From: Halopseudomonas xiamenensis
GTDB taxonomy: Bacteria > Pseudomonadota > Gammaproteobacteria > Pseudomonadales > Pseudomonadaceae
NCBI RefSeq assembly: GCF_014219065.1
Contig: NZ_JACLGO010000010.1
Location: 72,157 to 136,156 of the forward strand
Length of the DNA: 64,000 nt
Direction of reading: 5' to 3'
The notes beneath the pieces were generated by a model. That model did not search any database. It had not been told where the DNA came from and was given only the letters and a program-made list of their open reading frames with translations. Within the stretch, counting starts at the first letter, position 1; each line of letters begins with the position of its first letter. Below, in pieces: positions 8,141 to 46,003 of this stretch. The position numbers and the translations under genes were made by a program.

Positions 8141-10219
8141 ATGACCGTTGAGCGTTATCCCAATCTGTTCTCGCCGCTGAAGATCGGCAATATCACGGTG
8201 CGCAACCGTATCATGCAATCGGCGCACGCCATGGCCTTCAATTCGCCGGAAGGCCTGACCACCGACCGCGATGTCTACTATCATGCCGCCCGGGCCAAGG
8301 GCGGCATCGGCCTGATGATCACCGGCAACCGCCTGATCCACCCTACCTCCAATACCTTCTGCCGCGGCTACTCCTATGGCTACCGGCCGGAGATGGTAGA
8401 GCGCGATCGCGCCCTGACCGATGTGGTACATGGCTTTGGCTCGCATATCTTCGCCCAGCTCAACCATTTCGGCGTCATGGGTGAAACCCATGCCATGGAC
8501 GATTACCGGGTGTTGTGGTCGGCATCCAACATCAAGTCGCCGGTATTCGGTGAAATGGCCAAGGCCATGGAGCGTAGCGACATGGATGAGGTGCTCGATG
8601 GTTGGGTGGTCTCGGCCGATTATTCGAAGCAGGCGGGCTTCGATGGTGTCGAGGTGCATCTGGCGCACAGTTATCTGCTGCACCAGTTCATCTCGCCGCT
8701 GTTCAACAAGCGCGATGATGAATATGGCGGCAGCTTCGAGAACCGCATGCGTTATCCACTGGAAGTGATACGCGCGGTGCGTGAGCGGGTCGGGCCGGAT
8801 TATGTGGTGGGCATCCGCCTGTCGATGGACGAGATGGTGCCCGGCGGCATGGAGATCGACGACTGGATCGAGGTGGCCCGTACCGTGGAGGCGACCGGGG
8901 ATATCGATTACATCATGGCCACCGCCGGTGTGTACCAGTCGGCCACCTACATCATGCCGCCGTACGATGTGCCCAATGGCTGGCTGGCCGATCCGGTGGC
9001 GCGGCTCAAGCGGGCGGTGCAGATCCCGGTATTCTGTGTGTCCGGGATCGGCAGTGCCGGTGAGGCCGAGGCGATCCTGGCCCGTGGCGGGGCGGATATG
9101 GTGGCGATGACCCGGGCCCAGATCGCCGATCCGGAGTTCGCCAACAAGACTGCGGAGGGCAGGGAAGATGAGATATACCACTGCCTGCGCTGCAACCAGG
9201 GCTGCGTGTCACGCCTGTTCCATGGCACCTCCATGACCTGCCAGATCAATCCGGCGACCGGTCGCGAGGAGGTGTTCGGTCCGCAGACGCTGGAGCTGGC
9301 ACCGGTCAGCAGGCACTGGGTGGTGGTTGGCGGCGGGCCGGCTGGCATGAAGGCGGCGGAGGGGCTGGCCAAGCGCGGGCATCGGGTCACCCTGCTGGAA
9401 AAGGGGCCTGAGCTGGGTGGCCAGGTCAACCAGATCGTCAAGTTGCCACGCCGCGACTCCTTTGCCTGGATCACCGAGGACCTGAAGGTGCACATGGCCA
9501 AGCATGGGGTCAAGGTCAGGCTCAACTGCGAGGCCGATGTCGGGATGATCCAGGCCCTGAACCCGGACGGGGTGATAGTTGCCACCGGCTCGGTGCCGGA
9601 TCGCAGTGGCTATTCCGATATCAACCCGCTGGTGGAGCAGGTGCCCGGCCTGGATAGCGACCGGGTGCTGACCGCGCTGGATGTGCTGGCGCACCCGGAG
9701 CGGGTCGGCAAGCGGGTGCTGGTGCTGGATGAGGAGGGCAACCGCTACTCTGCCGGGATCAGCGAACTGCTGGTGGAAAATGGCCATCAGGTGCATGTGC
9801 TGACCCGCTGGAACGCGCTGTTCCATCGTCTGGGTACGACCCTGGACCAGCCGGTGGTCTATGCCAACCTGTTCAGCCAGGGGCTGACCTACACCCTCAA
9901 CGCCTGGGTCAGCCAGGTGCGCGACGGCGATGTGGATATCTTCAACCTGTATACCGGCGATGAGCAAACCCTGTCGGGCTTCGACAGCATAGTGCTGGCG
10001 GTGCGGCATCTGCCGGTGGACGCTTTGTACCATCAACTGAAGGCGGTCCTGCCGAACGTGCACCGGGTCGGCGATGCCGTGGTGCCCCGCAAGACCGACC
10101 ATGCCATCTTCGAGGGCTTTCTCGCTGGACGGGAGATCTTCGACAACTGGAAACGCTATATAGAGCCGGGGTCCATCGAGCAATTCAGTGGGCCGATGGA
10201 GTTGGCTCGTTTCGGCTAA
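8141..10219 (+). CDS. FMN/4Fe-4S/FAD old-yellow-enzyme reductase, copy 2
   Basis: This 692-residue paralogue is colinear with the preceding gene, 55 bp away. It shows the same barrel start (PNLFSPLKIGNITVRNRIM), the HSYLLHQFISP active-site segment, the cluster motif CLRCNQGC...C and the dinucleotide-binding sequence VVGGGPAGMKAAEGLA. The two copies differ throughout, so this is an old duplication with probable division of labour rather than a recent copy. It may act on a second double bond or a different intermediate. It is the last gene before a strong terminator, which closes the first catabolic operon. Confidence 0.8.
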   Translation: MTVERYPNLFSPLKIGNITVRNRIMQSAHAMAFNSPEGLTTDRDVYYHAARAKGGIGLMITGNRLIHPTSNTFCRGYSYGYRPEMVERDRALTDVVHGFGSHIFAQLNHFGVMGETHAMDDYRVLWSASNIKSPVFGEMAKAMERSDMDEVLDGWVVSADYSKQAGFDGVEVHLAHSYLLHQFISPLFNKRDDEYGGSFENRMRYPLEVIRAVRERVGPDYVVGIRLSMDEMVPGGMEIDDWIEVARTVEATGDIDYIMATAGVYQSATYIMPPYDVPNGWLADPVARLKRAVQIPVFCVSGIGSAGEAEAILARGGADMVAMTRAQIADPEFANKTAEGREDEIYHCLRCNQGCVSRLFHGTSMTCQINPATGREEVFGPQTLELAPVSRHWVVVGGGPAGMKAAEGLAKRGHRVTLLEKGPELGGQVNQIVKLPRRDSFAWITEDLKVHMAKHGVKVRLNCEADVGMIQALNPDGVIVATGSVPDRSGYSDINPLVEQVPGLDSDRVLTALDVLAHPERVGKRVLVLDEEGNRYSAGISELLVENGHQVHVLTRWNALFHRLGTTLDQPVVYANLFSQGLTYTLNAWVSQVRDGDVDIFNLYTGDEQTLSGFDSIVLAVRHLPVDALYHQLKAVLPNVHRVGDAVVPRKTDHAIFEGFLAGREIFDNWKRYIEPGSIEQFSGPMELARFG

Positions 10220-29468: not shown

Positions 29469-29645
29469 AGTTGGCTAGTCCATTTATCGATAAGCTGAGA
29501 GTTACAATGTTAAGTTATCTCCTGTCTAAACTCGTAATGCTTCGATTGCTATGCGGCGATGAAACGTGACCGAAACTACAGGATGTCCGCTTCTTGATTA
29601 GTTGGCTACTGGGGTCAGAAGCTCCCAAGAAGATTGACTGGCCCT

Positions 29646-32480
29646 GATTTATCCCCGTAGGTGCGGGGAACACCACCGGGTTATAAAGCGTCACCACTCC
29701 GGCATCGGTTAATCCCCGCAGGTGCGGGGAACACCGCACGTCCGGTGCCAGTTTCTCGATACTCGACGGTTAATCCCCGCAGGTGCGGGGAACACACCTT
29801 GGTTCTGACCCGTTTAGTTTGCGCTTTCGGTTAATCCCCGCAGGTGCGGGGAACACGCTGCAACCTCCATCTACACCTCACTTCTTCGCGGTTAATCCCC
29901 GCAGGTGCGGGGAACACGTGCTGCCGACCATCTACGGCGAGGAGGGCATCGGTTAATCCCCGCAGGTGCGGGGAACACCGCTTGCTGTACCCGGCGCGGA
30001 TGGCCGCAGCCGGTTAATCCCCGCAGGTGCGGGGAACACTGTATGACCGGCACCCAGAGACCCCGGGCTTTCGGTTAATCCCCGCAGGTGCGGGGAACAC
30101 AGATCGGCAGAACAGCGCGGGCTGGCCTTTACCGGTTAATCCCCGCAGGTGCGGGGAACACCGCAGCAAAGCTGTACGACGCCACGCGTTTATCGGTTAA
30201 TCCCCGCAGGTGCGGGGAACACCTCATATCGTTTCTTGCTGGACATGATTCCTCCGGTTAATCCCCGCAGGTGCGGGGAACACCACCAGATATACCGCTG
30301 GCGGGTCCGGCCTTGCGGTTAATCCCCGCAGGTGCGGGGAACACGTTGGCGATGCGGTAGTCACGCTGCAGAACAGCGGTTAATCCCCGCAGGTGCGGGG
30401 AACACGCCAATCCGGTATCGCCAGCCTTGTCCGCTTTCGGTTAATCCCCGCAGGTGCGGGGAACACGCAAGCTGGATGGATGTCAGGAATGTTTCCATCG
30501 GTTAATCCCCGCAGGTGCGGGGAACACTACGCCGAATCCTGCACAAGACCGCGCTCCAGCGGTTAATCCCCGCAGGTGCGGGGAACACGATGAATCGCTG
30601 GCAGTGGATAAACACGCCGTCGGTTAATCCCCGCAGGTGCGGGGAACACGGATGACTGAGGGAGGGAATCGACACATTTGGCGGTTAATCCCCGCAGGTG
30701 CGGGGAACACGCCGGGTCAGTGATGGCGTGATCGGCAAGATCCGGTTAATCCCCGCAGGTGCGGGGAACACAGCCGAGGCTATGAACTGACATTCGGCGA
30801 TGCCGGTTAATCCCCGCAGGTGCGGGGAACACATCGACACACCCCGCGAGGGAATGCCCATGTACGGTTAATCCCCGCAGGTGCGGGGAACACGGCATGA
30901 CAAAGGCATCCAGCAACTTGCTGACCGGTTAATCCCCGCAGGTGCGGGGAACACCATGTCGTAACAGTTGCACATATCCCTCACCTCGGTTAATCCCCGC
31001 AGGTGCGGGGAACACGTACATGCTGGCGATGTCGCGCAGGTTGACCTCGGTTAATCCCCGCAGGTGCGGGGAACACCAGCTTGGTCATGCCGGTAGATAG
31101 GCTGTCCGCGGTTAATCCCCGCAGGTGCGGGGAACACCACCCCATGGACCTGAATGGCGGTGATCGGGACGGTTAATCCCCGCAGGTGCGGGGAACACGC
31201 AAGCACCGGCGCGGGGCCACGCTGAATGCGCGGTTAATCCCCGCAGGTGCGGGGAACACGCCGGACGCCTGATATCAACTAACCACGGCCCCGGTTAATC
31301 CCCGCAGGTGCGGGGAACACGACAGGGACGAATGGGTTGCCGAAAACGGTTGCGGTTAATCCCCGCAGGTGCGGGGAACACGTATCGGCAAGCTGGATCA
31401 GCTCAAGATGGAGCGGTTAATCCCCGCAGGTGCGGGGAACACGTCGTCACCGGCGTTATCCGCGCGCTCAGGCACCGGTTAATCCCCGCAGGTGCGGGGA
31501 ACACTGATGCAACAGCGGCAAGGCTGCCTAGCTTTTCGGTTAATCCCCGCAGGTGCGGGGAACACGCCAAAAGCACCCTGAGCTACCCGATAATGGGCGG
31601 TTAATCCCCGCAGGTGCGGGGAACACTACCAGAGCATCAACGTCGATCACGGCAGCAGCGGTTAATCCCCGCAGGTGCGGGGAACACTGTCAACGCCCAT
31701 AGAGACAAACACACTCCGGCGGTTAATCCCCGCAGGTGCGGGGAACACGGGAGCTCGCCATCCGCGATTGAGCGCATGATCGGTTAATCCCCGCAGGTGC
31801 GGGGAACACTCTGTCACGCTCGCGAATGTAGGCGTTGAATGCGGTTAATCCCCGCAGGTGCGGGGAACACTCCAGAGTGGGCGCCCTGGCCCCCGGCGTG
31901 TCCGGTTAATCCCCGCAGGTGCGGGGAACACAGGCTGACCAAGCGCGATCAGCAGATGGGTGACGGTTAATCCCCGCAGGTGCGGGGAACACATTTCCCA
32001 GACAACGCGATGCGCCAGCATAAGCGGTTAATCCCCGCAGGTGCGGGGAACACTTCGTCCAGGGTCATGCGGCCGCCCTCCACTGCGGTTAATCCCCGCA
32101 GGTGCGGGGAACACATCCCGACCTATGGGCGGCCCTGCTCGCCTGGCGGTTAATCCCCGCAGGTGCGGGGAACACATAGCTTGATTTCCACGAACGATAT
32201 AGCCGTCCGGTTAATCCCCGCAGGTGCGGGGAACACCGGTTGCGGATACCCAGCGTCTCGCTGATGGCCGGTTAATCCCCGCAGGTGCGGGGAACACTCC
32301 CCAGAGCCTTCCTCAGTCGAGGTGGTCAGCGGTTAATCCCCGCAGGTGCGGGGAACACTCGTGCAGGTCGGCATCCGGCCACAGACCTACCGGTTAATCC
32401 CCGCAGGTGCGGGGAACACGATCCGCGCCCATTCGAGGGCGATAAGGACCACGGTTAATCCCCGCAGGTGCGGGGAACAC
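29646..32480 (-). CRISPR. Type I-E CRISPR array, 47 repeats and 46 spacers
   Basis: By hand I count 47 repeats of 29 bp, at 61-bp spacing. Most spacers are 32 bp; the one at 31443-31475 is 33 bp and the first (29675-29705) is 31 bp. On the minus strand each repeat begins GTGTTCCCCGC, has an inverted GCGGGG arm and ends ATTAACCG, the I-E type seen in Escherichia and Pseudomonas. The repeat at 29646-29674 is degenerate (TGATTTATCCCCGTAGG on the plus strand), which marks the old, distal end. The leader and cas2 are at the other end. All other repeats appear identical, so the array looks well maintained. Confidence 0.97.
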
Positions 32481-33773: not shown

Positions 33774-34598
33774 TCAGTTGTCCTCACTGAGGAGCGGGGT
33801 GCGAGTGGTTTCAAGCAATACGCGCATTTGCCGAATGGCCAATTCATTCAACTTCTTCAGGCGGTCAGGCTGGGGTAAGCCTTCGGCAATAAAATGGGCA
33901 TTCATTGTTTCCATATTGGCCAGACAGACCAACTGGTGAATATTGGCATGATCCCGGATATTACCCTTCAGGGTCGGGTTTGCATCTCGCCATTGCTTGG
34001 CGGTGACGCCAAATAGAGCCATGTTGAGCAGATCGGCTTCGCTGGCATAGACAAAGCTGATCTGTTTGGGAGACAAGGTTTCGGGGATCAGGTTTTCGCG
34101 GATCGCATCGGTATGGATCAGATAGTTGACCTTGGCCAGGTTGCGCCGGATATCCCAGCCCAGCTGTTGAAACTCCTGCTCCTTGAGGCGCTGGAACTCC
34201 TTGATCAGGTAAAGCTTGAACTCCACCGAAATCCAGCTGGCGAACTCGAAGGCAATGTCTTTCTGGGCAAAGGTGCCTCCGCCGTAGCGCCCAGCCTTGG
34301 AAATCAGTCCGATCGCACCCGTCTGCTCAATCCATTGCTTGGGTGTCAGGGTGAAACTGTTGAGACCGGCTTGTTTTTTAAAGTCATCGAATTCGATGAC
34401 TTTAAAACTCGGATTGTTGAGCTGCTCCCAGATTCCGAGGAATTCGATAGTGTTACGGTTACGCAACCAGTTGCCGATAATGATGCCGGTTCGATCCCCA
34501 CCCTTGTAGCGCGCAATGTCTGTAATACAGATATATTCCACACCATTCTTGGAATGGGTGGCGATGTCCTGCTCCAGTACCTGCAGCTTGGCTTTCAT
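33774..34598 (-). CDS. KilA-N domain protein inserted in the cas operon
   Basis: This 274-residue protein has an N-terminal KilA-N domain (about 10-125), recognised by CITDIARYKGGD, NWLRNRNTIEFLGIWE, the GAIGLISKAGRYGGGTFAQKDIAFEFASWIS segment (given in parts) and FKLYLIKEFQRLK. The C-terminal helical part is unassigned. KilA-N is a DNA-binding domain known mainly from phages and mobile elements. The gene follows cas6e by 24 bp and ends 2 bp before cas1, so it is co-transcribed with the cas genes. It is not a standard I-E component. It could be a regulator, an accessory adaptation factor, or a passenger from a mobile element. The coding sequence contains a 32-bp perfect palindrome. Confidence 0.85.
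   Translation of the reverse strand: MKAKLQVLEQDIATHSKNGVEYICITDIARYKGGDRTGIIIGNWLRNRNTIEFLGIWEQLNNPSFKVIEFDDFKKQAGLNSFTLTPKQWIEQTGAIGLISKAGRYGGGTFAQKDIAFEFASWISVEFKLYLIKEFQRLKEQEFQQLGWDIRRNLAKVNYLIHTDAIRENLIPETLSPKQISFVYASEADLLNMALFGVTAKQWRDANPTLKGNIRDHANIHQLVCLANMETMNAHFIAEGLPQPDRLKKLNELAIRQMRVLLETTRTPLLSEDN
34376..34407. repeat. 32-bp perfect palindrome inside the KilA-N gene
   Basis: Two 16-base arms (TTTTAAAGTCATCGAA and its exact complement TTCGATGACTTTAAAA) meet with no spacer. The coding strand reads FKVIEFDDFKK across it. It is AT-rich in a GC-rich genome, and an ungapped symmetry of this length is far beyond chance. It may be a protein-binding site or a transcript hairpin. Confidence 0.9.
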
Positions 34599-34622: not shown

Positions 34623-35285
34623 CTACATGGGCTTGACCAGCAGCAGACCGCATCCGAACCCCTTGCTGTGACCGACACCTTCCAGTAATGCGGTGCGCAA
34701 ACGTTCCGGGTCGCTGACCTGGGCTACGCCCTGATAATCGAGACTGGAGTATTCGATATTGTTGCCCTTGCGTCGGAGCCGGTGTTGACGATAGCCATTC
34801 TGCAGCAGGCTTTCGGGCCTGATCGACAACCCCCAGTGTTCGGCACGTTCCAACAACCAGGCCCGGCCGGCTGCATCGCGTATCTCTGACAGCCGCTCCT
34901 GTTGCTGGCCAGTCGCGCTCTGTTTGGCATGCATCAGGACATCATGCCGGCGAGAGCGGCCACTTTCCTGGCGCACGCTGACCGTAGGATTGGCACGCAG
35001 ATCAAAGCGTAACCATGCCCCTTGTTCCAGTTGTGGTGCATAAGGTTTGCTCTTGATATCGAACAAGCCTGAGTCCGGTTGCGGTGGGCGGGCGGATACA
35101 ACGTAGAAGCTGCGCTCGTCCTCCAGGCGTCGAAACAGAAAGTCCCGGGGCATGTCATCCCCGGGAAACAGCCGCCAGATCAATGCGTGATCCCGGTAGG
35201 GCTCACCGTGTCGTGCCAGATTGCGCAGCCAGTCATCCTGTCTCAGGCTGGCCACCAGGCGGACATGGGAAAAATAATGGCTCAT
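34623..35285 (-). CDS. cas6e: Cas6e crRNA-processing endonuclease
   Basis: This 220-residue protein starts MSHYFSHVRLV; its ATG overlaps the cas5e stop as ATGA. It carries the family's early YRDHALIWRLFPGD segment with the catalytic-type His, and a C-terminal glycine-rich loop GVGHSKGFGCGLLLVKPM that positions RNA. It cleaves the repeat hairpin and stays bound to the crRNA in Cascade. Its recognition hairpin in this genome, CCCCGC...GCGGGG, is also present in the solitary repeat at 39607-39635. Confidence 0.93.
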   Translation of the reverse strand: MSHYFSHVRLVASLRQDDWLRNLARHGEPYRDHALIWRLFPGDDMPRDFLFRRLEDERSFYVVSARPPQPDSGLFDIKSKPYAPQLEQGAWLRFDLRANPTVSVRQESGRSRRHDVLMHAKQSATGQQQERLSEIRDAAGRAWLLERAEHWGLSIRPESLLQNGYRQHRLRRKGNNIEYSSLDYQGVAQVSDPERLRTALLEGVGHSKGFGCGLLLVKPM

Positions 35286-36049
35286 GCCTGCTCTCCCTCG
35301 CTCAGAGCTACCCATTCACGGCGCGGTGCGAACTGCCAGCGAGTACGTGACAGCGGCTGGTCGTGGCGCACCGCTTCGAAGCTGGGTTGCAGACCTGCTT
35401 CCATACCGTCCTCCCAGTAGTAGCGCACCTGTTTTATGCGGAACGCCTGGCGATCCTGTCGATTTGGCCAGCTCTGCTGCGGCTGGTGCTTATCCAGCAA
35501 CCCCAGCAATGAGGGCCATGTCATGTCATCCAGCGCCTCACGCAGAGTGGTGGTTGCCGCGCGTTGCGGTAATAACGGCAAGGCCAGTGGACAGGATTTG
35601 CGTCCCAGGTAGAGGGGAAAGTGCGGTTGGCGCAGTGCCTGCGCCAGCGTGTCCAGATCGGCAGGCGCCTCCGGCAAGGCTTCCACTGCCACCAGCGCCA
35701 GACTGTCGCAACGGTATTCCCGCGCAGAAAGGATGGTGTCTACCTTGGCTGCCGCCAGTTCCTGGCGGCGCGAGCGGAACTGGAACTTGCGCGGTGCAAC
35801 GCCTACCTGAATCGTATGGTAGTCACGCAACGGTGAGCCTGTGCTCTCCAGCTTGATACCGAAGCGATAGCCAGCGGTCAGCGCTCTCTGACCAGACTCA
35901 TCGTCTCGTGTGATGCCCAGTGTGGCACCCAGCAGCCCCAGCAGCGCAGAGCGAGAAGGGTGTGCCGCCGAGTGCCGCAATTCGCCCACCGCGATCTCGC
36001 CCCAGCTGGCCAGCGGCCCGTAGAGGCGCAGCAGCAGATAGTCTGTCAT
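35282..36049 (-). CDS. cas5e: Cas5e Cascade subunit
   Basis: This 255-residue protein has the typical Cas5 start LLLRLYGPLASWGE and the GELRHSAAHPSRSALLGLLGA region (given in part), the glycine-rich RAMP motif. It caps the 5' handle of the crRNA in Cascade. It begins 2 bp after cas7e and overlaps cas6e by 4 bp, giving a compact coupled operon. Confidence 0.93.
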   Translation of the reverse strand: MTDYLLLRLYGPLASWGEIAVGELRHSAAHPSRSALLGLLGATLGITRDDESGQRALTAGYRFGIKLESTGSPLRDYHTIQVGVAPRKFQFRSRRQELAAAKVDTILSAREYRCDSLALVAVEALPEAPADLDTLAQALRQPHFPLYLGRKSCPLALPLLPQRAATTTLREALDDMTWPSLLGLLDKHQPQQSWPNRQDRQAFRIKQVRYYWEDGMEAGLQPSFEAVRHDQPLSRTRWQFAPRREWVALSEGEQA

Positions 36050-37086: not shown

Positions 37087-37724
37087 GCGGTCAACTCCTT
37101 GTTGGATACGGGTTCCACGGCTGCTGCCTGCTCCCGCTTGCTTAGGTAATAATCACAGGCCCAGTGAAACTTGATGCCATCACTGGCGCGAAGGGCGGAT
37201 TGCCCGAGTTCCATTTGCCAGTTCAACAGGTCGTCGGCCAGCCGCGCTACATCCGCCGAGCCCTCGGCCAGTTGAACTGCGCGCCGCCAATGACGGAACA
37301 GGTCATGCAGAGTAGAGCTGCGTTGCATGGTCTTGAAGCGCAGCTCGCTCATCCTGGGGCGCTCATTGTCCGCGCCGTGGCCAAGATGCCAGGCTAGGCT
37401 TTTATTGTCCTGCGCATCGCTCTTAATGGTAGCCAGCACACCCGCCACCCACGCCACTCGTTCATAGCTGATGGGCTGGTCGGACAGAAAGCCTGCATTA
37501 TCGTCCAGCGCAATCAGGCGCTCGGCCAGCAACAGGGTGGCGGCCTGACTCAGCAGTTCCTCGGCATCCTTGCAGCGACGCAGCTGGGCCCGCTCGCCGC
37601 GACCCATTGCCCAGAGTCCGCCGGGTAAAGGCGGATCTTCGGCCTGGCGTGGTTGCAAGGCTCGCCACCAATCGCGTACCCAGCGTTGCTGAGCGTCGTT
37701 CAGTTTGAGTCTTCTGGGTTTCAT
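37083..37724 (-). CDS. cse2: Cse2 (CasB, Cas11e) Cascade small subunit
   Basis: This 213-residue helical protein starts MKPRRLKLNDAQ; its ATG overlaps the cas8e stop (ATGA). It contains the I-E small-subunit segment LAWHLGHGADNERPRMSELRFKTM (seen in pieces) and RHWRRAVQLAEG. Two copies stabilise the target DNA R-loop. Length and operon position are normal. Confidence 0.92.
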   Translation of the reverse strand: MKPRRLKLNDAQQRWVRDWWRALQPRQAEDPPLPGGLWAMGRGERAQLRRCKDAEELLSQAATLLLAERLIALDDNAGFLSDQPISYERVAWVAGVLATIKSDAQDNKSLAWHLGHGADNERPRMSELRFKTMQRSSTLHDLFRHWRRAVQLAEGSADVARLADDLLNWQMELGQSALRASDGIKFHWACDYYLSKREQAAAVEPVSNKELTA

Positions 37725-39274
37725 GCCGGCTCCTTGTGATGGCGATTTACAACTTCCCACAACGGCTTCAACGTCTTGCCGCTGTTGAGGTCCCTGGTTA
37801 ACGCTGCCCTGGCCTTGATCACGCGCTGCATGTCCTGATGCTCGAATGGACTGCTCAATACCCAATGATCAAAGAGATCCAGCATCAGCCGACGTGTTTC
37901 CAGAAGCCAGCGGCGGTAGATAGGGGCCAGTTTTGCCTTGCTGTCGAAATCCAGCACGGCCAATTCATCCAGCAGTCGATAGAAAATGGCTTCCGAACCT
38001 TGCCAGAAGCTCTGTGGGACTGCGGGTTCATTACCGGCATCACCGGGACGGCGGAACCAGGCGGCCTTGACTTGTCTGTGTAATGTGCTCGCCATCTCCT
38101 CGGCGGAGTCGAGCAACTGTTTTACGGTCTTGGTGAAAGGGCGGAGCACATCAGATTCGATGACATGCACCGGCAGGGTGCTGTCGTACCAGCAAAGGGA
38201 CTTCATGTTCGACATCGAAAATCCGAAGCACCATAGCCGCGCCTGCGGGCTGCGCACCTTGGTTGTGAAGTGGGACACCACCTTGGCGGCGTCAGGCTGG
38301 TGGGTGTCGTTGCCCAATACCAACCCCAGCCAGTCTCGATAGCCGCGACCGGCTTGGTGCCCCTTGCTGGATATGGGCGGTTTTTCACCCTTGGCGTCCA
38401 GGCTATAGGGCGTCAGCGGATGTACCCAGGTGCCGGTATAGTTGGTGCCGCCATGGCGAGTGCGGTAGTGGCGAATCAAGCGTACGTTCGTCGCGGCGCA
38501 GACAGCGCATGGGCCCTGATCCACAGTCGAAGCATCCAGTCGGATACGACGGGGCATGCTCCAGTAGGCTTGTAACGGATGCACGGATTCTGGCGGAGTG
38601 TCCTGCCCGCTCTTGTCGTCGCTGGTGCGGGTGGGTGCCAACCAGGGCAGCACGTCGCTCAACTCTTTCACCGGCGGATGGTCAAGGGCGTCCAGTGGTA
38701 TCACATTGAGCCAGAGTTTCTGCCACAAGGTCGCGTTTTCATCGGCAGGCAGCAGTAGGGTGGTCAGCGGGCCGCCGCCACGCAGCGAGGTGCGAACGCC
38801 ACGCCCGCCGGAAGGCGCATTGATCTGCAGAGTGAGCAGCGCCTGGGTGAAGCAGGCTTCGCACAGTCCATGATCTGATGCCGGCTTGTTGAAATAACGG
38901 TTGCTGGAGGAGCCGGCGTCGATTAACAGCTCCAGTACCGGTAGCTGGTTGACTTCATCCGGCAGCGCCAGATCCTGCATGAAGGCAGGGCCGTCGTTTT
39001 CCAGCAGAAATGCATGTTTGAAGGGTTCGAAGGCTGCCTGCAGTTCCTCATGGGTTGGTGGCCTGTTGTAGCGGTCTCGCCACTCCTTCACATCCCGTGG
39101 GGCGTAAGCGATTTGCAGCAGGCCGATCAGGAACTGATAGAGCGCGCCGCGAAAGTCCGGGCGGGGCGAGTAGATATCCAGCCAATTGGCATCACCTAGC
39201 TCCGCTACTGATACTGCACCTTGGCCACCACGACTGCAGATCCCTTGCAACCAACGCTCTGCTGTTAAGTTCAT
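37721..39274 (-). CDS. cas8e: Cas8e (Cse1/CasA) Cascade large subunit
   Basis: This 517-residue protein has the Cse1 pattern: VSVAELGDANWLDIYSPRPDF near the start, the conserved NKPASDHGLCEACFTQALLTLQ region (in parts), a CAVCAATNVRLIRHYRTRHGGTNYTGTW zinc-like loop (in parts) and a C-terminal four-helix bundle. Cas8e recognises the PAM and recruits Cas3. Its ATG is only two bases after the stop of the -1 frame of the small ORF at 39277-39425, hinting at translational coupling with that peptide. Confidence 0.92.
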   Translation of the reverse strand: MNLTAERWLQGICSRGGQGAVSVAELGDANWLDIYSPRPDFRGALYQFLIGLLQIAYAPRDVKEWRDRYNRPPTHEELQAAFEPFKHAFLLENDGPAFMQDLALPDEVNQLPVLELLIDAGSSSNRYFNKPASDHGLCEACFTQALLTLQINAPSGGRGVRTSLRGGGPLTTLLLPADENATLWQKLWLNVIPLDALDHPPVKELSDVLPWLAPTRTSDDKSGQDTPPESVHPLQAYWSMPRRIRLDASTVDQGPCAVCAATNVRLIRHYRTRHGGTNYTGTWVHPLTPYSLDAKGEKPPISSKGHQAGRGYRDWLGLVLGNDTHQPDAAKVVSHFTTKVRSPQARLWCFGFSMSNMKSLCWYDSTLPVHVIESDVLRPFTKTVKQLLDSAEEMASTLHRQVKAAWFRRPGDAGNEPAVPQSFWQGSEAIFYRLLDELAVLDFDSKAKLAPIYRRWLLETRRLMLDLFDHWVLSSPFEHQDMQRVIKARAALTRDLNSGKTLKPLWEVVNRHHKEPA

Positions 39275-39276
39275 AT

Positions 39277-39425
39277 CTAATCCCTGTCAATGCTGATGGT
39301 CAGCCTAAATCTCTTTATCGTGGTGATAAATCCCCACAACAGAAGTGCCCCTACAAAAAAGCTAACAGGCCAAGTTCTGCGCCTCCTGCCTCAGAAATCC
39401 CAAGTCCAGCTATAAAAGCTCGCAT
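39277..39425 (-). CDS. Small membrane peptide upstream of cas8e, apparent -1 frameshift
   Basis: ATG at 39425-39423 follows GGAGGA with 7-base spacing. The zero frame encodes 24 residues (MRAFIAGLGISEAGG, AELGLLAFL) and stops at 39351. The final codons form the heptamer T TTT TTG in the correct frame for -1 slippage. The -1 frame continues for 25 residues, VGALLLWGFITTIKRF then RLTISIDRD, and stops two bases before cas8e. The joined 49-residue product would have one clear membrane segment and a basic C-terminal flank. It may be a programmed frameshift, a decayed gene, or a base-count error in the six-T run. CGA, ATA and TTA codons are unlike the neighbouring core genes. Function unknown. Confidence 0.45.
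39314..39330. promoter_or_regulatory. Short inverted repeat upstream of cas8e
   Basis: TTTATC / GATAAA arms surround GTGGT, about 40-60 bp upstream of the cas8e start. It could be an operator, or a small hairpin about 23 bases after the slippery heptamer. It overlaps the -1 frame of the small ORF, so any regulatory role is uncertain. Confidence 0.35.
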
Positions 39426-39432
39426 GCCCGTC

Positions 39433-39459
39433 TCCTCCAAATCCTGCAATGTTGGAGGA
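39433..39459 (-). promoter_or_regulatory. Hairpin sequestering the Shine-Dalgarno of the small ORF
   Basis: TCCTCCAA and TTGGAGGA form an 8-bp perfect stem around an 11-base loop. On the minus strand the 3' arm contains the GGAGGA that serves ATG 39425. The stem would therefore hide the ribosome site unless opened, so translation of the small peptide looks controlled. Confidence 0.6.
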
Positions 39460-39488
39460 AGTAAAACATTGAGAGGTATTTTTTTCAA
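39460..39488 (-). promoter_or_regulatory. Promoter for the small ORF and possibly the cas8e operon
   Basis: On the minus strand TTGAAA (39488-39483) and TTTACT (39465-39460) are separated by 17 bases, a good sigma-70 layout. Transcription would begin near 39453, right at the 5' arm of the Shine-Dalgarno hairpin. The plus strand here reads AAG followed by a stretch containing TGAGAGGT. The same octamer occurs in the sequence after the solitary repeat, so the promoter may be a Cascade target. Confidence 0.5.
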
Positions 39489-39606
39489 GGCTTGTTAGCT
39501 TTTTGAAATTTATTGTGAGGAACAAGCCCTTCACTTCAGATATCATTCTCCTAGCCACTTCCTTTCCTACAAGAGAGGATGAACCGGCTTGCTAGCTGTT
39601 CTAAGC

Positions 39607-39635
39607 ATGTTCCCCGCCTTTGCGGGGATTAGTTT
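39607..39635 (+). repeat. Solitary degenerate CRISPR repeat between cas3 and cas8e
   Basis: Aligned with the 29-bp array repeat, 21 positions match, including TGTTCCCCGC and TGCGGGGATTA as unbroken blocks. The differences are confined to the loop and the ends. The hairpin stem needed by Cas6e is intact. Orientation is opposite to the cas genes, so a crRNA-like RNA would be made from the plus strand and run into the antisense of the cas3 3' end. No second repeat follows within a spacer length. A simple terminator is an alternative reading, since TTAGTTTTATT follows the stem. Confidence 0.7.
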
Positions 39636-39641
39636 TATTGG

Positions 39642-39672
39642 AATGAGAGGTGTCAAAAATAGCGCCTCTCAC
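39642..39672 (-). terminator. Hairpin at the cas3 stop codon
   Basis: GAGAGGTG (39645-39652) pairs with CGCCTCTC (39663-39670), an 8-bp stem with one G-T pair and a 10-base A-rich loop. It covers the cas3 stop at 39669-39671. There is no T tract on the minus strand, so it may block 3' exonucleases or mark the cas3 transcript end rather than terminate strongly. Confidence 0.35.
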
Positions 39673-42398
39673 CAACTCAGCCCGCTGCGCTGGTCATAAC
39701 GCATCTCCAGAACCCTTCCCCGTTCATCTTGCACTTTCGCCAGCAATGCACCTTCTTTCTCCAACAACGGCAGAATGAATGCTGGCTCTTCCAGCAGTCG
39801 CCAACCGCTGCGCAGTTGCTGCAAAGCACTGTCGAATCGTTGTTGCCAATCCGGGGCCAGTGACTGGGCGTAGCCTGTGTGAATGCGCACTGCTGACTGC
39901 TCCCAGCAATAGGCGCCTTCATTGCGTAATGGCTGCAGTTCGCCGTCGCGCCATAGCGCCAGGTACAGGGTCAGCGTTTCATCGCCAAGCCGAGTCGGTA
40001 CCTGATGCTCTTCATACCAGCGATCGCTGCTGTCAATGCAATAGCCCTTGTTCAGTTTCAGCGCATTGAAATGCGCCTGGCTTTTCATCGCCATGTCCTT
40101 GCCGGCCTGATCCTGGCTGGCCTTGCTCAAGGCGTCGGGCACTTCTTCGGCCTGTTCGCCATACACTGCTTCGACCAGTTCGCGCACGGCACCGGGTTGT
40201 CCCGCTTCGCCGGGAGTGATGATGCAGCCGGCGTGCAGCAGTGCGCGAGCACCCCGCCAGAGCGCACCGGCATCCGGGTAGACGAAGCAACCCTTGGGAA
40301 ACATCGCTGCATACCAGTCTGCCTTGGCGTCGGCAACTGGCTCCGGTGTCAGCAGGCAGAGTACCGGGGCCGGGCGTTGCTCGACGCCGTCTGCAGCCGG
40401 GTTGCCATCGGCCTGTCTGGCATGGCGTTGCAGGCGCCCGGCGCGCTGGATCAGCAGGTCGATGGGGGCCAGATCGGACACCATCAGATCCACATCGAAG
40501 TCCAGGCTCTGTTCCAGGACTTGCGTGCCGACCAACACCCGTCCGGCCCGTTCGGCACCGGTGGAATGCTTGCCGAACCGTGCCAGCACCTCGGCCTCGA
40601 TATCCAGACGGTCGCCCATGGCATAACGGCTATGGAACAGCTGCAGGTGTTCGGGTGGCAGATGCTCGGATAGCAAACGGTGGGCGCGGCGGGCGTCTGC
40701 CACCGTGTTGCGAATCCAGGCAACGCAGCGCCCGGCGCGGGCCTGCTCCGTGATCATCTCCAGTACGGCGGCTTCTTCATGCAGTGCCTGTACCTGCACT
40801 TTGCGCCGCACCTGTGGGCGGGTGGCGCAGGCATGCGCAACCAGCTCGCGACCAGCCCGTACCGCGAGGGGATAGCGTGCATCTGCGAGTCCTTCTCCGT
40901 CGTCGGTATTCAGGCCGAAACGGTAGGCGGCCAACAATCTGTCACGTGCCAGCAGCGGCAGGGTGGCCGACAGCAGGATGACGCTGCCGCCCTGCCGTGC
41001 ATGGGCCGTCAGCAGGGTTTCCAGCAGGGACATCATATAGGCGTCATAGGCGTGCACTTCGTCCACCAGCAGCACTTTGCCCGCAAGGCCGAGCAGGCGT
41101 AATGACTGGTGCCGGGCCGGTAGTACTGCCAGCAGGGCCTGGTCCAGCGTGCCGACACCGACTTCGGCCAGCAGCGCCTTCTTGCGGTTGTCAGCGAGCC
41201 AGGCGTTGCATTGGGCACTGGCCGAGCCTTCACCGGGCTGATAGGTGTGATCGCTGGGCTGTTCTTGCAGAATGCTCTGGCGAAAACCATCTACCAGTTG
41301 CCGCGCGCCATGGGCGAGAATCAGCGACGGTTGCGCATCGCTTGCATACAGGCGTTGGTAGACGCTGCCGACGCGCTGATACATCTGGTTTGCAGTAGCC
41401 ATGCTTGGGAGGGCGAAGTACAGCCCTTGTGCCCGCCCTGCCTGCATAAGGCGCTGGGTCAGGATCAGAGCTGCCTCGGTCTTGCCAGCGCCTGTTACGT
41501 CCTCCAGCAAGAACAGCTGGGGCCCGCTTTCCAGCTCCACCGTCGCCGCGTACTGCTGCAGGGGAGTTGGTTCACGCAGGTAGTCGAACAGGGCCAGGGG
41601 AGCAGGCCATTCACGCACTCCCTGCCCATGCAGACCTGCCATCGAGATGGCCTGAGTAGCCTGCGCCTGTGCATATGTCCAATACTTCGCAAGTGATCCC
41701 GGCTCGGCCCGATAGGGAAAGAACGCCTGGTTGGAGCCCAGCCAGTCCGCCAGTACCGACAGCCCCGCCAATCGCCATGTATGGCGTTTCAGGGCGACCA
41801 GATGTTCCCGGCCCGGCAGCGGAATATCTGTGGGTAACAGCAACTCTGCGATGTCAGCCATGAAGGATCGTGCGGCCCGGCGATCCGCTCGCAGAAAAAA
41901 CTCGCCAGCGTCCTGGGCTATCAGCCCGCCGCCTTCGTGTTCTTGTGGTGGCTTGCCATGATGGCCGACCACGCTGCGCACCCAGACACTCCAGAATTCG
42001 CTGGCACAATCCGGCAGAAAGTCAGCTTGCATACTGTCAACGGCTTCTTCACGCCAGAACATCCACCCCAGGGTGTCATGCCGCTGGGTATAAGGTTTGT
42101 CCTCATCTGCCGGGACAAGGTCGGGTGACAGATCAGGTACCAGCCCCTGAAAGGCGCGGGCGAACTTGCCCAAGTCATGCAATGCCAGAAAAAAGACGAA
42201 CAGGTGTTCGACGATTGCGGGAGGCCAGTCCAGTTCCTCGGCAAGGGAGTTCAGCGAAAACTGTGGCAAATCCAGCAAGGCACGCCCACAGGCTGATACG
42301 TCAAGAGAGTGGTAGGGCAGGAGATGGAACAAGTCCATGCCCTCATTGGCAGGAGACGCTTTACCCCAGTAGCGAAAATATGGATGCTCATCCAGCAT
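39669..42398 (-). CDS. cas3: Cas3 HD nuclease-helicase, type I-E
   Basis: This 909-residue protein starts at MLDEHPYFRYWGK, with GGAGAG seven bases upstream. The N-terminal HD domain shows HDLGKFARAFQ and VVGHHGKPP. The SF2 helicase shows Walker A DVTGAGKTEAALILTQ, Walker B LLVDEVHAYD, motif III LLSATLP and a C-terminal domain. Cas3 is recruited by Cascade and degrades the target strand. All visible catalytic motifs are intact, so interference should work. It is separated from cas8e by a 394-bp region holding the solitary repeat and the small ORF, so it probably has its own promoter. Confidence 0.95.
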   Translation of the reverse strand: MLDEHPYFRYWGKASPANEGMDLFHLLPYHSLDVSACGRALLDLPQFSLNSLAEELDWPPAIVEHLFVFFLALHDLGKFARAFQGLVPDLSPDLVPADEDKPYTQRHDTLGWMFWREEAVDSMQADFLPDCASEFWSVWVRSVVGHHGKPPQEHEGGGLIAQDAGEFFLRADRRAARSFMADIAELLLPTDIPLPGREHLVALKRHTWRLAGLSVLADWLGSNQAFFPYRAEPGSLAKYWTYAQAQATQAISMAGLHGQGVREWPAPLALFDYLREPTPLQQYAATVELESGPQLFLLEDVTGAGKTEAALILTQRLMQAGRAQGLYFALPSMATANQMYQRVGSVYQRLYASDAQPSLILAHGARQLVDGFRQSILQEQPSDHTYQPGEGSASAQCNAWLADNRKKALLAEVGVGTLDQALLAVLPARHQSLRLLGLAGKVLLVDEVHAYDAYMMSLLETLLTAHARQGGSVILLSATLPLLARDRLLAAYRFGLNTDDGEGLADARYPLAVRAGRELVAHACATRPQVRRKVQVQALHEEAAVLEMITEQARAGRCVAWIRNTVADARRAHRLLSEHLPPEHLQLFHSRYAMGDRLDIEAEVLARFGKHSTGAERAGRVLVGTQVLEQSLDFDVDLMVSDLAPIDLLIQRAGRLQRHARQADGNPAADGVEQRPAPVLCLLTPEPVADAKADWYAAMFPKGCFVYPDAGALWRGARALLHAGCIITPGEAGQPGAVRELVEAVYGEQAEEVPDALSKASQDQAGKDMAMKSQAHFNALKLNKGYCIDSSDRWYEEHQVPTRLGDETLTLYLALWRDGELQPLRNEGAYCWEQSAVRIHTGYAQSLAPDWQQRFDSALQQLRSGWRLLEEPAFILPLLEKEGALLAKVQDERGRVLEMRYDQRSGLSW

Positions 42399-42523
42399 GG
42401 TCCACTCTCCTGTCAGGCCATCAGTGATATTGCATGGTGCCACTATTAGCATGGATGTGCTGCGCTTTCATACCACAGTATCCCGCAGTTCTAACTTAAG
42501 GTGTTCCGCTGTAATTGCCGCTA

Positions 42524-42549
42524 TGGGTTATGCTCTACCCCATAACCCA
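42524..42549. promoter_or_regulatory. 9-bp inverted repeat before aguB
   Basis: TGGGTTATG and CATAACCCA are perfect inverted arms around an 8-base centre, ending 16 bp before the aguB ATG. In Pseudomonas the agu operon is controlled by the TetR-family repressor AguR, and this symmetric element is a plausible operator. It could instead form a leader hairpin. The aguR gene is not in the window. Confidence 0.5.
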
Positions 42550-42565
42550 CCCACCGGAGAAAGCC

Positions 42566-43444
42566 ATGTCCCGCCTCGTTACCGTCGCCGCCACCCAGAT
42601 GAGCTGCAGTTGGGACCGTCAGGCCAATATCGCCAGGGCTGAACAGCTGGTGCGTCAGGCCGCTGCACAGGGAGCGCAGATCATCCTGATCCAGGAGCTG
42701 TTCGAGACGCCGTACTTCTGTCAGAAGCCCAACCCGGAATATCTGCAGCTGGCCACCACGGTGGAGGACAACCCGGCCATTGCGCACTTCCAGAAGATCG
42801 CCCGGGAGTTGCAGGTGGTATTGCCGATCAGTTTCTTCGAGCTGGCCGGGCGGGCGCGCTTCAACAGCATCGCCATCATCGATGCCGATGGGCGCAATCT
42901 GGGGGTGTACCGCAAGAGCCATATCCCGGACGGCCCCGGTTATCACGAGAAATACTATTTCAATCCCGGCGATACCGGTTTCAAGGTGTGGAAGACCCGC
43001 TACGCGACCATCGGCGTGGCGATCTGCTGGGACCAGTGGTTCCCCGAGTCCGCCCGTTCCATGGCGCTGCAGGGGGCGGAAATCCTGTTCTATCCCACGG
43101 CCATCGGCAGCGAGCCGCATGATGCCTCGATCACCTCCAAGGATCACTGGCAGCGGGTGCAGCAGGGCCATGCCGGGGCCAACCTGATGCCGCTGGTGGC
43201 CAGCAACCGGGTCGGTCGTGAGGAGCAGGATGGTTATGACATCACCTTCTACGGTGCATCCTTCATTGCCGACCAGTTCGGCGAGAAGGTGCAGGAGGCC
43301 AATGCCACGGATGAGACCGTGCTGGTGCAGCAGTTCGACCTGGATCAGTTGGAACATATCCGCGCCGCCTGGGGGGTGTTCCGCGATCGTCGGCCGAATC
43401 TGTATGGCCCACTGAAAACCCTGGATGGTTCGCTGGAGTCCTGA
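42566..43444 (+). CDS. aguB: N-carbamoylputrescine amidase
   Basis: This 292-residue nitrilase-superfamily enzyme contains the triad Glu (LIQELFETPYF), Lys (GVYRKSHIPDGPGYHEKYYF region) and Cys (GVAICWDQWFPE). The length equals Pseudomonas AguB. It converts N-carbamoylputrescine to putrescine, CO2 and ammonia. ATG 42566 follows CGGAGA. It is 3 bp upstream of aguA, so the two form the agmatine catabolic operon. Confidence 0.95.
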   Translation: MSRLVTVAATQMSCSWDRQANIARAEQLVRQAAAQGAQIILIQELFETPYFCQKPNPEYLQLATTVEDNPAIAHFQKIARELQVVLPISFFELAGRARFNSIAIIDADGRNLGVYRKSHIPDGPGYHEKYYFNPGDTGFKVWKTRYATIGVAICWDQWFPESARSMALQGAEILFYPTAIGSEPHDASITSKDHWQRVQQGHAGANLMPLVASNRVGREEQDGYDITFYGASFIADQFGEKVQEANATDETVLVQQFDLDQLEHIRAAWGVFRDRRPNLYGPLKTLDGSLES

Positions 43445-43447
43445 TTC

Positions 43448-44545
43448 ATGTACACCTTGCACAGCACACCCCGCGCCGACGGCTATGCCATGCCCGCCGA
43501 GTGGGCTCCGCACAGCCAGACCTGGATGCTCTGGCCGGAGCGGCCGGATAACTGGCGCCTTGGCGCCAAGCCGGCACAGGCCGCGTTCGCCGAAGTGGCG
43601 CGGGCGATTGCCGGCTTCGAGCCGGTGACCGTCGGCGTGTCGGCGGCGCAGTACAGCAATGCCAGCCTGCAACTGGATCACCCGGCGATTCGGGTGGTGG
43701 AGATCAGCAGCGACGACGCCTGGGTGCGCGACACCGGCCCGACCTTCGTCACCAATGGCCAGGGCGGCCTGCGCGGTGTGGACTGGACCTTCAACGCCTG
43801 GGGCGGCTTCGACGGCGGGCTCTATTGGCCATGGAATCGTGATGACCAGGTGGCGGACAAGATCCTCGGCCTGGAGCGCTGCCCGCGCTACCGCACCGAG
43901 GGTTTCGTGCTGGAGGGCGGGGCCTTCCACGTGGATGGCGAGGGCACCCTGATCACCACCGAGGAGTGCCTGCTCAACCCCAATCGCAACGCCCATCTGC
44001 AACGCCATGAGGTCGAACAGATGCTGCACGACTATCTGGGCGTCGAATGCATCATCTGGCTGCCGCAGGGCCTGTATAACGATGAAACCGATGGGCATGT
44101 GGACAACTTCTGCTGTTTTGTCCGTCCCGGTGAGGTGCTGCTGGCCTGGACCGACGATCCGGACGATGCCAACTATCCCCGCTGCCAGGCTGCACTGGCG
44201 GTGCTGGAGCAGGCGGTTGATGCCCAGGGCCGGCAGCTGACCGTGCACCGGGTGCCGATCCCCGGGCCGATTCATGCCAGCAAGGCGGAGTGTGAGGGGG
44301 TGGACCAGGTGCCGGGTAGCCAGCCGCGCTCGCCCGGCATCCGCCTGGCCGGCTCCTATGTGAATTTCCTGATCGTCAATGGCGGCATCATCGCGCCGGC
44401 CTTTGACGATCCGCAGGATGCAGAGGCCCAGTCCGTGCTGGAGTCGCTGTTTCCCGAGCGCCGGGTGGTGATGGTGCCGGGGCGGGAAATACTTCTTGGT
44501 GGCGGCAATATCCACTGCATCACCCAGCAGCAGCCGGCGGTGTAA
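43448..44545 (+). CDS. aguA: Agmatine deiminase
   Basis: This 365-residue protein of the guanidino-group modifying family has the substrate-binding [13 protein letters not shown], the catalytic region [23 protein letters not shown] and the C-terminal [13 protein letters not shown], whose Cys is the nucleophile. It hydrolyses agmatine to N-carbamoylputrescine and ammonia, the substrate of the adjacent AguB. Start spacing to aguB is 3 bp. Confidence 0.95.
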
Positions 44546-44653
44546 GCGAAGCGGCTGCCCAGCGGGGCAAAATCGGATTATAGTCTGCTCGCCTGTCCGG
44601 CAATGCCGTATTGTCGAGCGGGCCCTCTCAATCGAGTAGAAAAAGGACACCCC

Positions 44654-46003
44654 ATGCACTTTGCTCATCGTGCCGTTGCCCTGCCGCTGGCCGGGTTGGC
44701 GATCCTGCTGTCTGGCTGCAATGAACCCGCTGCTAAAACCGCCGCGCCGGTACGCGATATGCCGGCCAGCCTGGCCGGAGAGCTGACCAGCCAGAGTAAC
44801 GTCAACCTGAACGATGGTTCGCGCAACCAGAGTTTCGAACTGCAACTGCAGGCCGGTACGCTGTATCGGGTCAGTAGCAGTGGCGCCCTCAAGCAGCCAA
44901 CCTTGCTGTTACTGTCCGAAGACAACCGCCCGGTCAGCGGACCGCGGGCCGAGCAGCTCTACCTGCAGCCGGAGCAGGACGGTCTCTACCGCCTGGCGAT
45001 CAGCGGCAGCAGCCCCAGCGATTTCGGTCCGTTCCGCCTGGAGCTGAACACTGCGGAACTGACCAGCGAGGGTGAGCTGCAGCCGGGAGCGGATATCCTC
45101 GGACACCTGGGTTCCGGCACGAAGCAGGGCGGCAACCGCTACACCCTGCAGATTGCCGAGCCGGGGTTGTACGAGCTGCTGCTACGCTCCGACGAGTTCG
45201 ACACGGTACTGAAACTGCGTGGTGCAGGTGTCAACCGTACCGATGACGATGGTGCCGGCGGTACCGATTCTCGCCTGCTGACCATGCTGCAGCAGGGCAG
45301 CTACCAGGTCATCGCCGGTGGTATCGATGCGGCTGATGAGGGCATCTACAGCCTGAGCTTCAAGCGCTGGGAGATGCCCGAGGGTATTACTCTCAGCGAT
45401 GGGGACCAGCTGAAGCTCAATGAAGAGCGCTCCGGCATGCTCACCGGCCACCCGCAGAGTTATACGCTGGTGATCGAGCAGGCCGGGCTGCTGCAGGTGA
45501 GCATGCGCTCGGATGACTTCGACAGCCTGCTGGAACTGAATGGCCAGGGCATCAATACCCGCGACGATGACAGCGGCGGGGATCGTGATGCCTTGATCAG
45601 CGTGGCGGTCGAGCCGGGCAGCTACCGGATCAAGGCGGCGCAGCTCGATGGTGTGGACGGCATGTTCACCCTGGCTGCCGAGCTGTCCGAGGTGGCCATG
45701 CTGGGTGACAGCATCACGGCTGGCGAGACCCGGCTAGGTCGTCTGGTGACCGGACAGCCGGTCGCTACCCAACTGAACATCGGCGAGGCGGGGCTGTATC
45801 GCATTACCCTGCGCTCATCGCAGTTCGATGCGCTGCTCGGGTTGCAGGGTGCCGAGCTGGAAGAGCAGGACGATGACAGCGCCGGCGGCACCAACGCCCA
45901 GCTTGAGCTGTGGCTGGACGCGGGCGACTACCAGTTGCTCAGTGGCAGCTATGGCGATGAGGGAGAGGGCAGCTTCGTGCTGTCGGTCAGCGCGCCGCTG
46001 TAG
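44654..46003 (+). CDS. Lipoprotein with four tandem PPC-like domains
   Basis: This 449-residue protein has a lipoprotein signal with lipobox LLSGC (Cys about 20), ATG 44654 after AAAAGGAC. The mature part contains four similar beta-sandwich units, each with a strand like AGLYRITLRS..FDALL, an acidic turn (RTDDDGAGGTDS, TRDDDSGGDRD, EQDDDSAGGTN) and a closing strand such as GSYQVIAGG. This is the pre-peptidase C-terminal (PPC) domain pattern, usually attached to secreted peptidases; here it stands alone. The aspartate turns may bind calcium. An outer-membrane binding role is likely; the partner is unknown. Its 3' end overlaps a small opposing ORF. Confidence 0.75.
   Translation: MHFAHRAVALPLAGLAILLSGCNEPAAKTAAPVRDMPASLAGELTSQSNVNLNDGSRNQSFELQLQAGTLYRVSSSGALKQPTLLLLSEDNRPVSGPRAEQLYLQPEQDGLYRLAISGSSPSDFGPFRLELNTAELTSEGELQPGADILGHLGSGTKQGGNRYTLQIAEPGLYELLLRSDEFDTVLKLRGAGVNRTDDDGAGGTDSRLLTMLQQGSYQVIAGGIDAADEGIYSLSFKRWEMPEGITLSDGDQLKLNEERSGMLTGHPQSYTLVIEQAGLLQVSMRSDDFDSLLELNGQGINTRDDDSGGDRDALISVAVEPGSYRIKAAQLDGVDGMFTLAAELSEVAMLGDSITAGETRLGRLVTGQPVATQLNIGEAGLYRITLRSSQFDALLGLQGAELEEQDDDSAGGTNAQLELWLDAGDYQLLSGSYGDEGEGSFVLSVSAPL

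Follow-up and report, generated by a model that had tools for sequence, protein, structure and literature searches.

The window analyzed here, the whole stretch of 64,000 nucleotides of Halopseudomonas xiamenensis DNA, contains a type I-E cas locus with a lone CRISPR-repeat-like hairpin between cas3 and cas8e, which raises the question of whether this hairpin belongs to a guide RNA of the CreA/CreR type and, if so, what the guide would recognize. The cas genes lie on the minus strand in the order cas3 (39669-42452), cas8e (37721-39274), cse2, cas7, cas5, cas6e (34623-35315, encoding the expected processing enzyme), cas1e and cas2e, and a further gene separates cas6e from cas1e. The main CRISPR array (29645-32480, minus strand) holds 47 repeat copies, and its repeat in the minus-strand reading is GTGTTCCCCGCACCTGCGGGGATTAACCG. 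The nearest named cas8e is that of Stutzerimonas stutzeri 95A6 (74%). Just upstream of cas3, a 774-aa open reading frame (42521-44845, minus strand) has no match in NCBIfam, Pfam or PHROGs.

Anatomy of the element

The hairpin had been described in an initial annotation as a solitary 29-bp repeat at 39607-39635 on the plus strand, and much of this description proved accurate. The element reads ATGTTCCCCGCCTTTGCGGGGATTAGTTT, shares 21 of its 29 positions with the array repeat, retains both hairpin arms, and lies in the cas3-cas8e gap 33 bp past the cas3 stop, about 7.1 kb from the array and on the opposite strand to it. A scan of the whole window identified it as the best repeat copy outside the 47 array copies; among the matches listed, the 13 further copies (scores 19-20) were 12 reverse-complement readings of array repeats and one at position 50242. 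Its hairpin folds better than 200 of 200 shuffles and, together with TTAGTTTTAT, scores as a plus-strand terminator. A search of positions 30000-52000 against Rfam returned nothing at gathering score. A second inverted repeat (GAGAGG...CCTCTC, ~39643-39673), between the element and the cas3 end and touching the cas3 stop codon, may form an RNA hairpin where cas3 ends.

The likeness to a repeat thus stood, but the element is not solitary: it is one half of a two-repeat mini-CRISPR on the plus strand, the other half being a degenerate first repeat found 20 nt upstream. This first repeat, R1 (39558-39586, plus strand; CTTCCTTTCCTACAAGAGAGGATGAACCG), has a re-paired 7-bp stem (TCCTTTC/GAGAGGA) and has kept the handle ATGAACCG (39579-39586, plus strand). 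Between R1 and the annotated repeat, hereafter R2, lies a 20-nt guide, GCTTGCTAGCTGTTCTAAGC (39587-39606, plus strand), which is 12 nt shorter than the array spacers and capable of partial self-folding. A weak candidate promoter of the mini-CRISPR (GGAACA-16 bp-TATCAT, 8/12 to consensus) is located at 39519-39546 on the plus strand. The initial annotation had taken the repeat as the 5' repeat of the guide and the bases from 39636 onward as a pseudo-spacer; neither assignment held, as R2 lacks the 5'-handle sequence and the gap offers the proposed pseudo-spacer no seed match flanked by AAG.

The target and a predicted mode of repression

The guide partially matches a protospacer, GCTTGTTAGCTTTTTGAAAT (39490-39509, plus strand), that lies 216 bp upstream of cas8e, the first cas gene downstream of it, and is preceded by the PAM AAG (39487-39489, plus strand). 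Overall 14 of the 20 positions match. Over positions 1-14 all 12 non-kink positions match; the two mismatches fall at 6 and 12, where type I-E crRNAs have their bases flipped out. The pattern of PAM plus seed occurs once in the 4.28-Mb genome, and among 5000 dinucleotide shuffles of the gap (39275-39557), with no PAM required, a single one reached 12/12.

Although seed and PAM are both matched at a site upstream of cas8e, the designation of this site as a cas promoter rests on a 9/12 candidate towards cas8e (39460-39488, minus strand), composed of TTGAAA (39488-39483), a 17-bp spacing and TTTACT (39465-39460). This candidate overlaps the PAM, is weak by consensus and was missed by a stricter scan. 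At the aligned place in the related locus L088, TTGTGG-17-TTTACT is kept, as judged by eye. The guide and target of L088 are both unlike those of the window, yet 9 of 10 seed positions match next to an AAG.

On the strength of these sequence features, it is very probable that the element is a CreR-type mini-CRISPR that represses its own cas operon. The CreA/CreR-type guide RNA proposed in the initial annotation thus finds strong support on the CreR side, from the AAG-flanked target, although the anatomy proposed with it was wrong. We infer transcription, processing, loading, repression and release of the following form. A short plus-strand transcript would be cut by Cas6e in R1 and R2, and the product would be a crRNA-like RNA with the 8-nt handle AUGAACCG, the 20-nt guide and the R2 hairpin. 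Cascade loaded with this RNA would bind 39490-39509 at the PAM AAG (the whole site being 39487-39509) and pair over approximately the first 14 nt, which is predicted to be enough to hold Cascade on the DNA and probably too little for Cas3-driven cutting, such that the limited pairing should prevent cutting. The bound Cascade would stop cas8e and the genes after it from being transcribed, and the block would be lifted when array crRNAs or anti-CRISPRs draw Cascade away.

Guides with this function are already reported for type I-E: in the available part of PMC13131331, which cites Liu et al. 2023, autorepression in types I-B, I-E and V-A is attributed to CreRs with partial complementarity to the promoter. 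The window shares with the CreRs of PMC13131331, PMC12948488 and PMC12737573, so far as the available parts of these papers describe them, a crRNA-like mini-CRISPR guide, limited complementarity at what would be the cas promoter region and a I-E effector, and it differs in its 20-nt guide, 12 nt below the array spacers, and in that repression in the window is predicted. Further CreR features seen in the window are a mini-CRISPR outside the array with repeats related to those of its own locus (R2 at 21/29, R1 by handle and stem) and an association with the cas operon that it would regulate, through its position in the cas3-cas8e gap. CreA genes, according to the available part of PMC8501985, have two degenerate repeats that yield an 8-nt 5' handle and a 3' handle. 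The layout of the window resembles that of the CreA of CreTA (PMC8501985, PMC9458426, in the parts available) in its two degenerate repeats, the first more diverged, and its partial match at a candidate promoter. Unlike CreTA, the window has no CreT with consecutive rare codons, and its target precedes the cas operon itself. No tRNA-sequestering CreT was found. Because CreRs are known for type I-E and the two-repeat layout is known from CreA, the window element adds to a known kind, and what is less ordinary here is the guide-length classes and the membrane peptides described below.

Short guides have precedents among engineered spacers. Spacers of type I-B of at most 24 bp repress without interference or priming (PMC10989794), and in type I-E, trimming the spacer by 6 or 12 leaves slow cleavage by Cas3 in place (PMC7296934), as stated in the available parts of these papers. 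The likeness is that short guides can repress, and the difference is that the window guide is natural. Because shortened I-E spacers keep slow cleavage, the limited pairing is the likelier safeguard against cutting.

Recurrence in related type I-E loci

In a first cross-locus scan, isolated elements resembling the repeat turned up in the cas3-cas8e gap, almost all of them on the strand opposite the cas genes. The two classes of lone repeat that it seemed to reveal, handle-only and hairpin-only, turned out to be R1 and R2 of one unit. Among 80 related named I-E loci, 35 carry a mini-CRISPR whose gap and relative strand are those seen in the window; these 35 were hand-picked from the output of a target-blind finder before targets were computed. 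Where the gap is 100 bp or longer they occur in 33 of 40 loci, and among the remaining 40 loci in 2 (hand count, with the gap measured to the nearest long upstream open reading frame). Counts were taken from gap-restricted finds, because the finder applied to whole loci also returns array remnants and chance matches in coding DNA. Matches with a weak stem or weak handle were dropped (L008, L037, L041, L052, L054-L058, L061, L062, L064, L068, L072, L078 and L080), and L028, L029, L048 and L051, with 6 of 8 handle bases, were retained for their two strong stems. The conservation in relatives anticipated by the initial annotation is therefore found across loci but fails within the genus: G016 and G036, the only other same-genus genomes with cas8e among 36 searched, both lack the element and have a gap of 47 bp. 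The same-genus loci without a guide (L003/L085 and L004/L086; cas8e 74% and 73%) offer natural comparison strains. Two genomes of the window's family (L089 and L090) carry the same mini-CRISPRs as Stutzerimonas stutzeri 95A6 and Azomonas macrocytogenes, which makes Pseudomonadaceae the probable family.

Targets were evaluated in 39 loci (the 35 plus the window, L088, L092 and L093). The best nearby site matched at 10 of 10 non-kink seed positions (positions 1-11) in 27 of the 39, against 3 of 1332 swapped pairs, and was preceded by AAG in 34 of 39, against 1.4% of swapped pairs. One of the 27 full seed matches, in L005, pairs with its own R1, and a weaker AAG site ranks second there. Among the five loci whose best site lacks AAG, of which L005 is one, L006 and L093 have no convincing target and L007 and L092 have only sites with other PAMs. 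When the guides were collapsed to 23 and their sites chosen without regard to PAM, AAG preceded 22 of 23; positions 6, 12 and 18 matched in only 7, 4 and 7 of these guides, against 20 and 21 at positions 13 and 14, and matching fades past approximately position 17. In 25 loci where the AAG target reads on the same strand as the guide, the median distance from the protospacer start to the downstream R1 is 60 bp (33-155), which places the target between the outward-reading guide and the cas genes.

A set of 53 other loci, from other genomes, gave 23 candidates, from which five repeats of earlier guides were left out (L095, L097, L103, L104 and L116). Six more were dropped after their targets had been seen: L118, L125 and L128 as weak and without AAG, L122 as array-like and with AAG, and L139 and L149 as the same or nearly the same guide, with AAG. 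The 12 remaining mini-CRISPRs had AAG in 12 of 12 and a 10/10 seed in 7, and with the six restored these counts become 15 of 18 and 9 of 18. A relaxed search that required an AAG target, applied to 12 loci, found a match in L011, compared with 1 of 60 control stretches, and none in the six gap loci without a pair (L008, L012, L018, L020, L021 and L036); this search also missed all five loci with a known pair that it covered (L005, L006, L007, L092 and L093), and its sensitivity is therefore limited. Among 29 loci without a cas3-cas8e gap, 4, all Xenorhabdus (L065, L066, L071 and L072, where cas3 and cas8e overlap), have a possible pair upstream of cas3, approximately 4 kb before cas8e; this mini-CRISPR is tentative, its targets being of low complexity.

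R1 and R2 were compared across 48 distinct mini-CRISPRs (L017, L030 and L063 collapsed; L089 and L090 omitted as copies of L005 and L007). The motif AACCG stands in register at the R2 end in none of the 48 (one base off in L093), against 31 R1 copies, the R1 count being partly selected because candidates were chosen on their R1 handles and, weakly, on their R1 stems, but not on R2 handles. Compared with a generic repeat, the first 11 nt at the 5' side have a mean identity of 5.10 in R1 and 8.96 in R2 (n = 48). R1 stems re-pair, with at least 5 pairs in 40 of 48 compared with 45% when halves were swapped, in a finder that required some R1 stem. The tails of R2, covered in 45 of the 48 copies, are somewhat T-rich (0.37 T; at least 4 T in 8 for 15 of 45).

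These patterns bear on two simpler accounts of the element. If it were the relic of an old array, a leftover of repeats and spacer with no function, its degenerate repeats and its absence from the two same-genus loci would be readily understood, but such a relic should not carry a guide with a PAM-flanked, kink-patterned match in the adjacent gap, nor should the same pattern recur in dozens of loci with different guides. The re-pairing rather than decay of R1 stems and a guide 12 nt shorter than the array spacers also argue against this account, and we consider it very improbable. Still less credible is that the element is a mere terminator or RNA hairpin near the cas3 end whose likeness to a repeat is secondary. 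The terminator score of R2 and the somewhat T-rich tails of its relatives agree with that account, which nonetheless leaves R1, the handle, the match of guide to target and the AAG unexplained. An R2 with a T-rich tail may additionally terminate the guide transcript, which is compatible with a CreR-type guide.

Guide-length classes and small membrane peptides

The guides of the 48 distinct mini-CRISPRs fall into two length classes, 19-22 nt (19 guides) and 31-33 nt (29 guides), with none of 23-30 nt, in a finder that permitted lengths of 14-44. By subunit arithmetic, we take the 12-nt step between the classes to fit two Cas7 units and perhaps one Cas11. The 31-nt guide of L006 (antisense, ~9790-9830) contains an 11-nt tandem duplication, a hint in its sequence of how one length class could become the other.

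Between target and cas8e, a conserved peptide with a single transmembrane segment (family A, ~36-44 aa; consensus MDxIKxLxExVNxFSPxPLAVIALALVLAIIxALK) is encoded in 12 of the 35 loci with a mini-CRISPR and, among the other 45, in L021 alone, in which no guide was found. Family-A loci are L016, L017, L019, L022, L024, L025, L026, L028, L029, L030, L038, L082, L099 and L021/L100, and of these L016, L017, L024, L026, L099 and L021/L100 were additionally found with a profile built from eight family-A peptides. Synonymous changes are in the majority in five of six family-A pairs (synonymous/other changes 18/3, 18/8, 12/5, 8/5 and 4/3; 19/23 in the most distant pair). No Pfam or NCBIfam family scored above cut-off for eight peptides that were tried. 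Elsewhere, weak matches to the peptide in 4 of 369 genomes of the class, three of them with in-frame stops, were taken as chance. In L016 and L017, a 71-aa open reading frame lies between target and cas8e, approximately 447 bp before cas8e, and may resemble a HicB antitoxin.

In the window itself, a tentative 24-codon open reading frame in the leader (39351-39425, minus strand) has a Shine-Dalgarno-like site, GGAGGAG, and is overlapped by a tentative open frame (39277-39390, minus strand) that has a hydrophobic stretch, lacks an ATG start and stops 2 bp before cas8e. A similar overlapping pair of frames is found in L088. In CreTA the targeted promoter drives a small RNA toxin that combines strong translation signals with rare codons in direct succession, whereas those of the 24-codon frame, CGA and ATA, are its codons 2 and 5 and thus not consecutive. 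The window was grouped by eye with L006, L013, L014, L015 and L088 as family B, whose profile scores are for this reason circular; the likeness between the window and L006 partly overlaps the ribosome-binding site of cas8e, and the pair L013-L014 shows 9/7 synonymous/other changes.

The extra gene between cas6e and cas1e encodes a KilA-N domain (33774-34598, minus strand; PF04383, E = 2.4e-17; phrog_2657), the sole KilA-N match in the genome. In 10 other loci, some of which have a guide and others not, tblastn places homologs (64-86% identity) approximately 4.7 kb past the start of cas8e (L006, L028, L046, L050, L051, L059, L063, L074, L085 and L086). A KilA-N toxin is repressed via a CreA guide in CrePA, as described in the available part of PMC12737573, to which the window is alike, by domain match, in having a KilA-N gene in its cas operon. 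A scan of the window found no second mini-CRISPR and no separate guide to the KilA-N gene, which may share the repressed operon.

Might the guide, then, act mainly as a CreA-like antitoxin that silences a small toxic peptide whose gene lies between target and cas8e, so that cells come to depend on Cascade? The single-transmembrane family behind the target (12 of 35 mini-CRISPR loci compared with 1 of 45 others) is consistent with such a role, as are the 24-codon frame with its Shine-Dalgarno-like site and the overlapping hydrophobic frame in the window and the similar pair in L088. However, the window frame is split and its hydrophobic part has no ATG, approximately half of the mini-CRISPR loci had no such peptide in the search made, and in L009, L010, L048, L077 and L084 a distance of only 40-59 bp from target to cas8e leaves no room for a peptide. 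We therefore regard an antitoxin as the main function of the guide as unlikely. A more inclusive idea, also rather unlikely, is that the CreR-type guide is more than a brake on the cas operon: the silenced transcript would open with a small single-pass membrane peptide, followed in the window by the KilA-N gene, to form a CRISPR-repressed toxin module. If this were true, a cell whose Cascade is lost or inhibited would be freed to make new Cascade and, with it, a membrane-active peptide. A module of this type was not met in the literature searched, nor was any paper on the locus, the guide-length classes or the membrane peptides, in a search that covered mainly open-access papers and is thus no proof of absence.

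What began as a lone repeat-like hairpin is now a complete guide-target pair, exactly placed in the window and open to testing, and many type I-E loci of gamma- and betaproteobacteria have the same device. The mismatch at every sixth position, left by the geometry of Cascade as a natural imprint, could serve to find such guides computationally. The two guide-length classes raise the question of how short guides repress, and the genes for membrane peptides under the same control raise the question of what else is released when Cascade fails.
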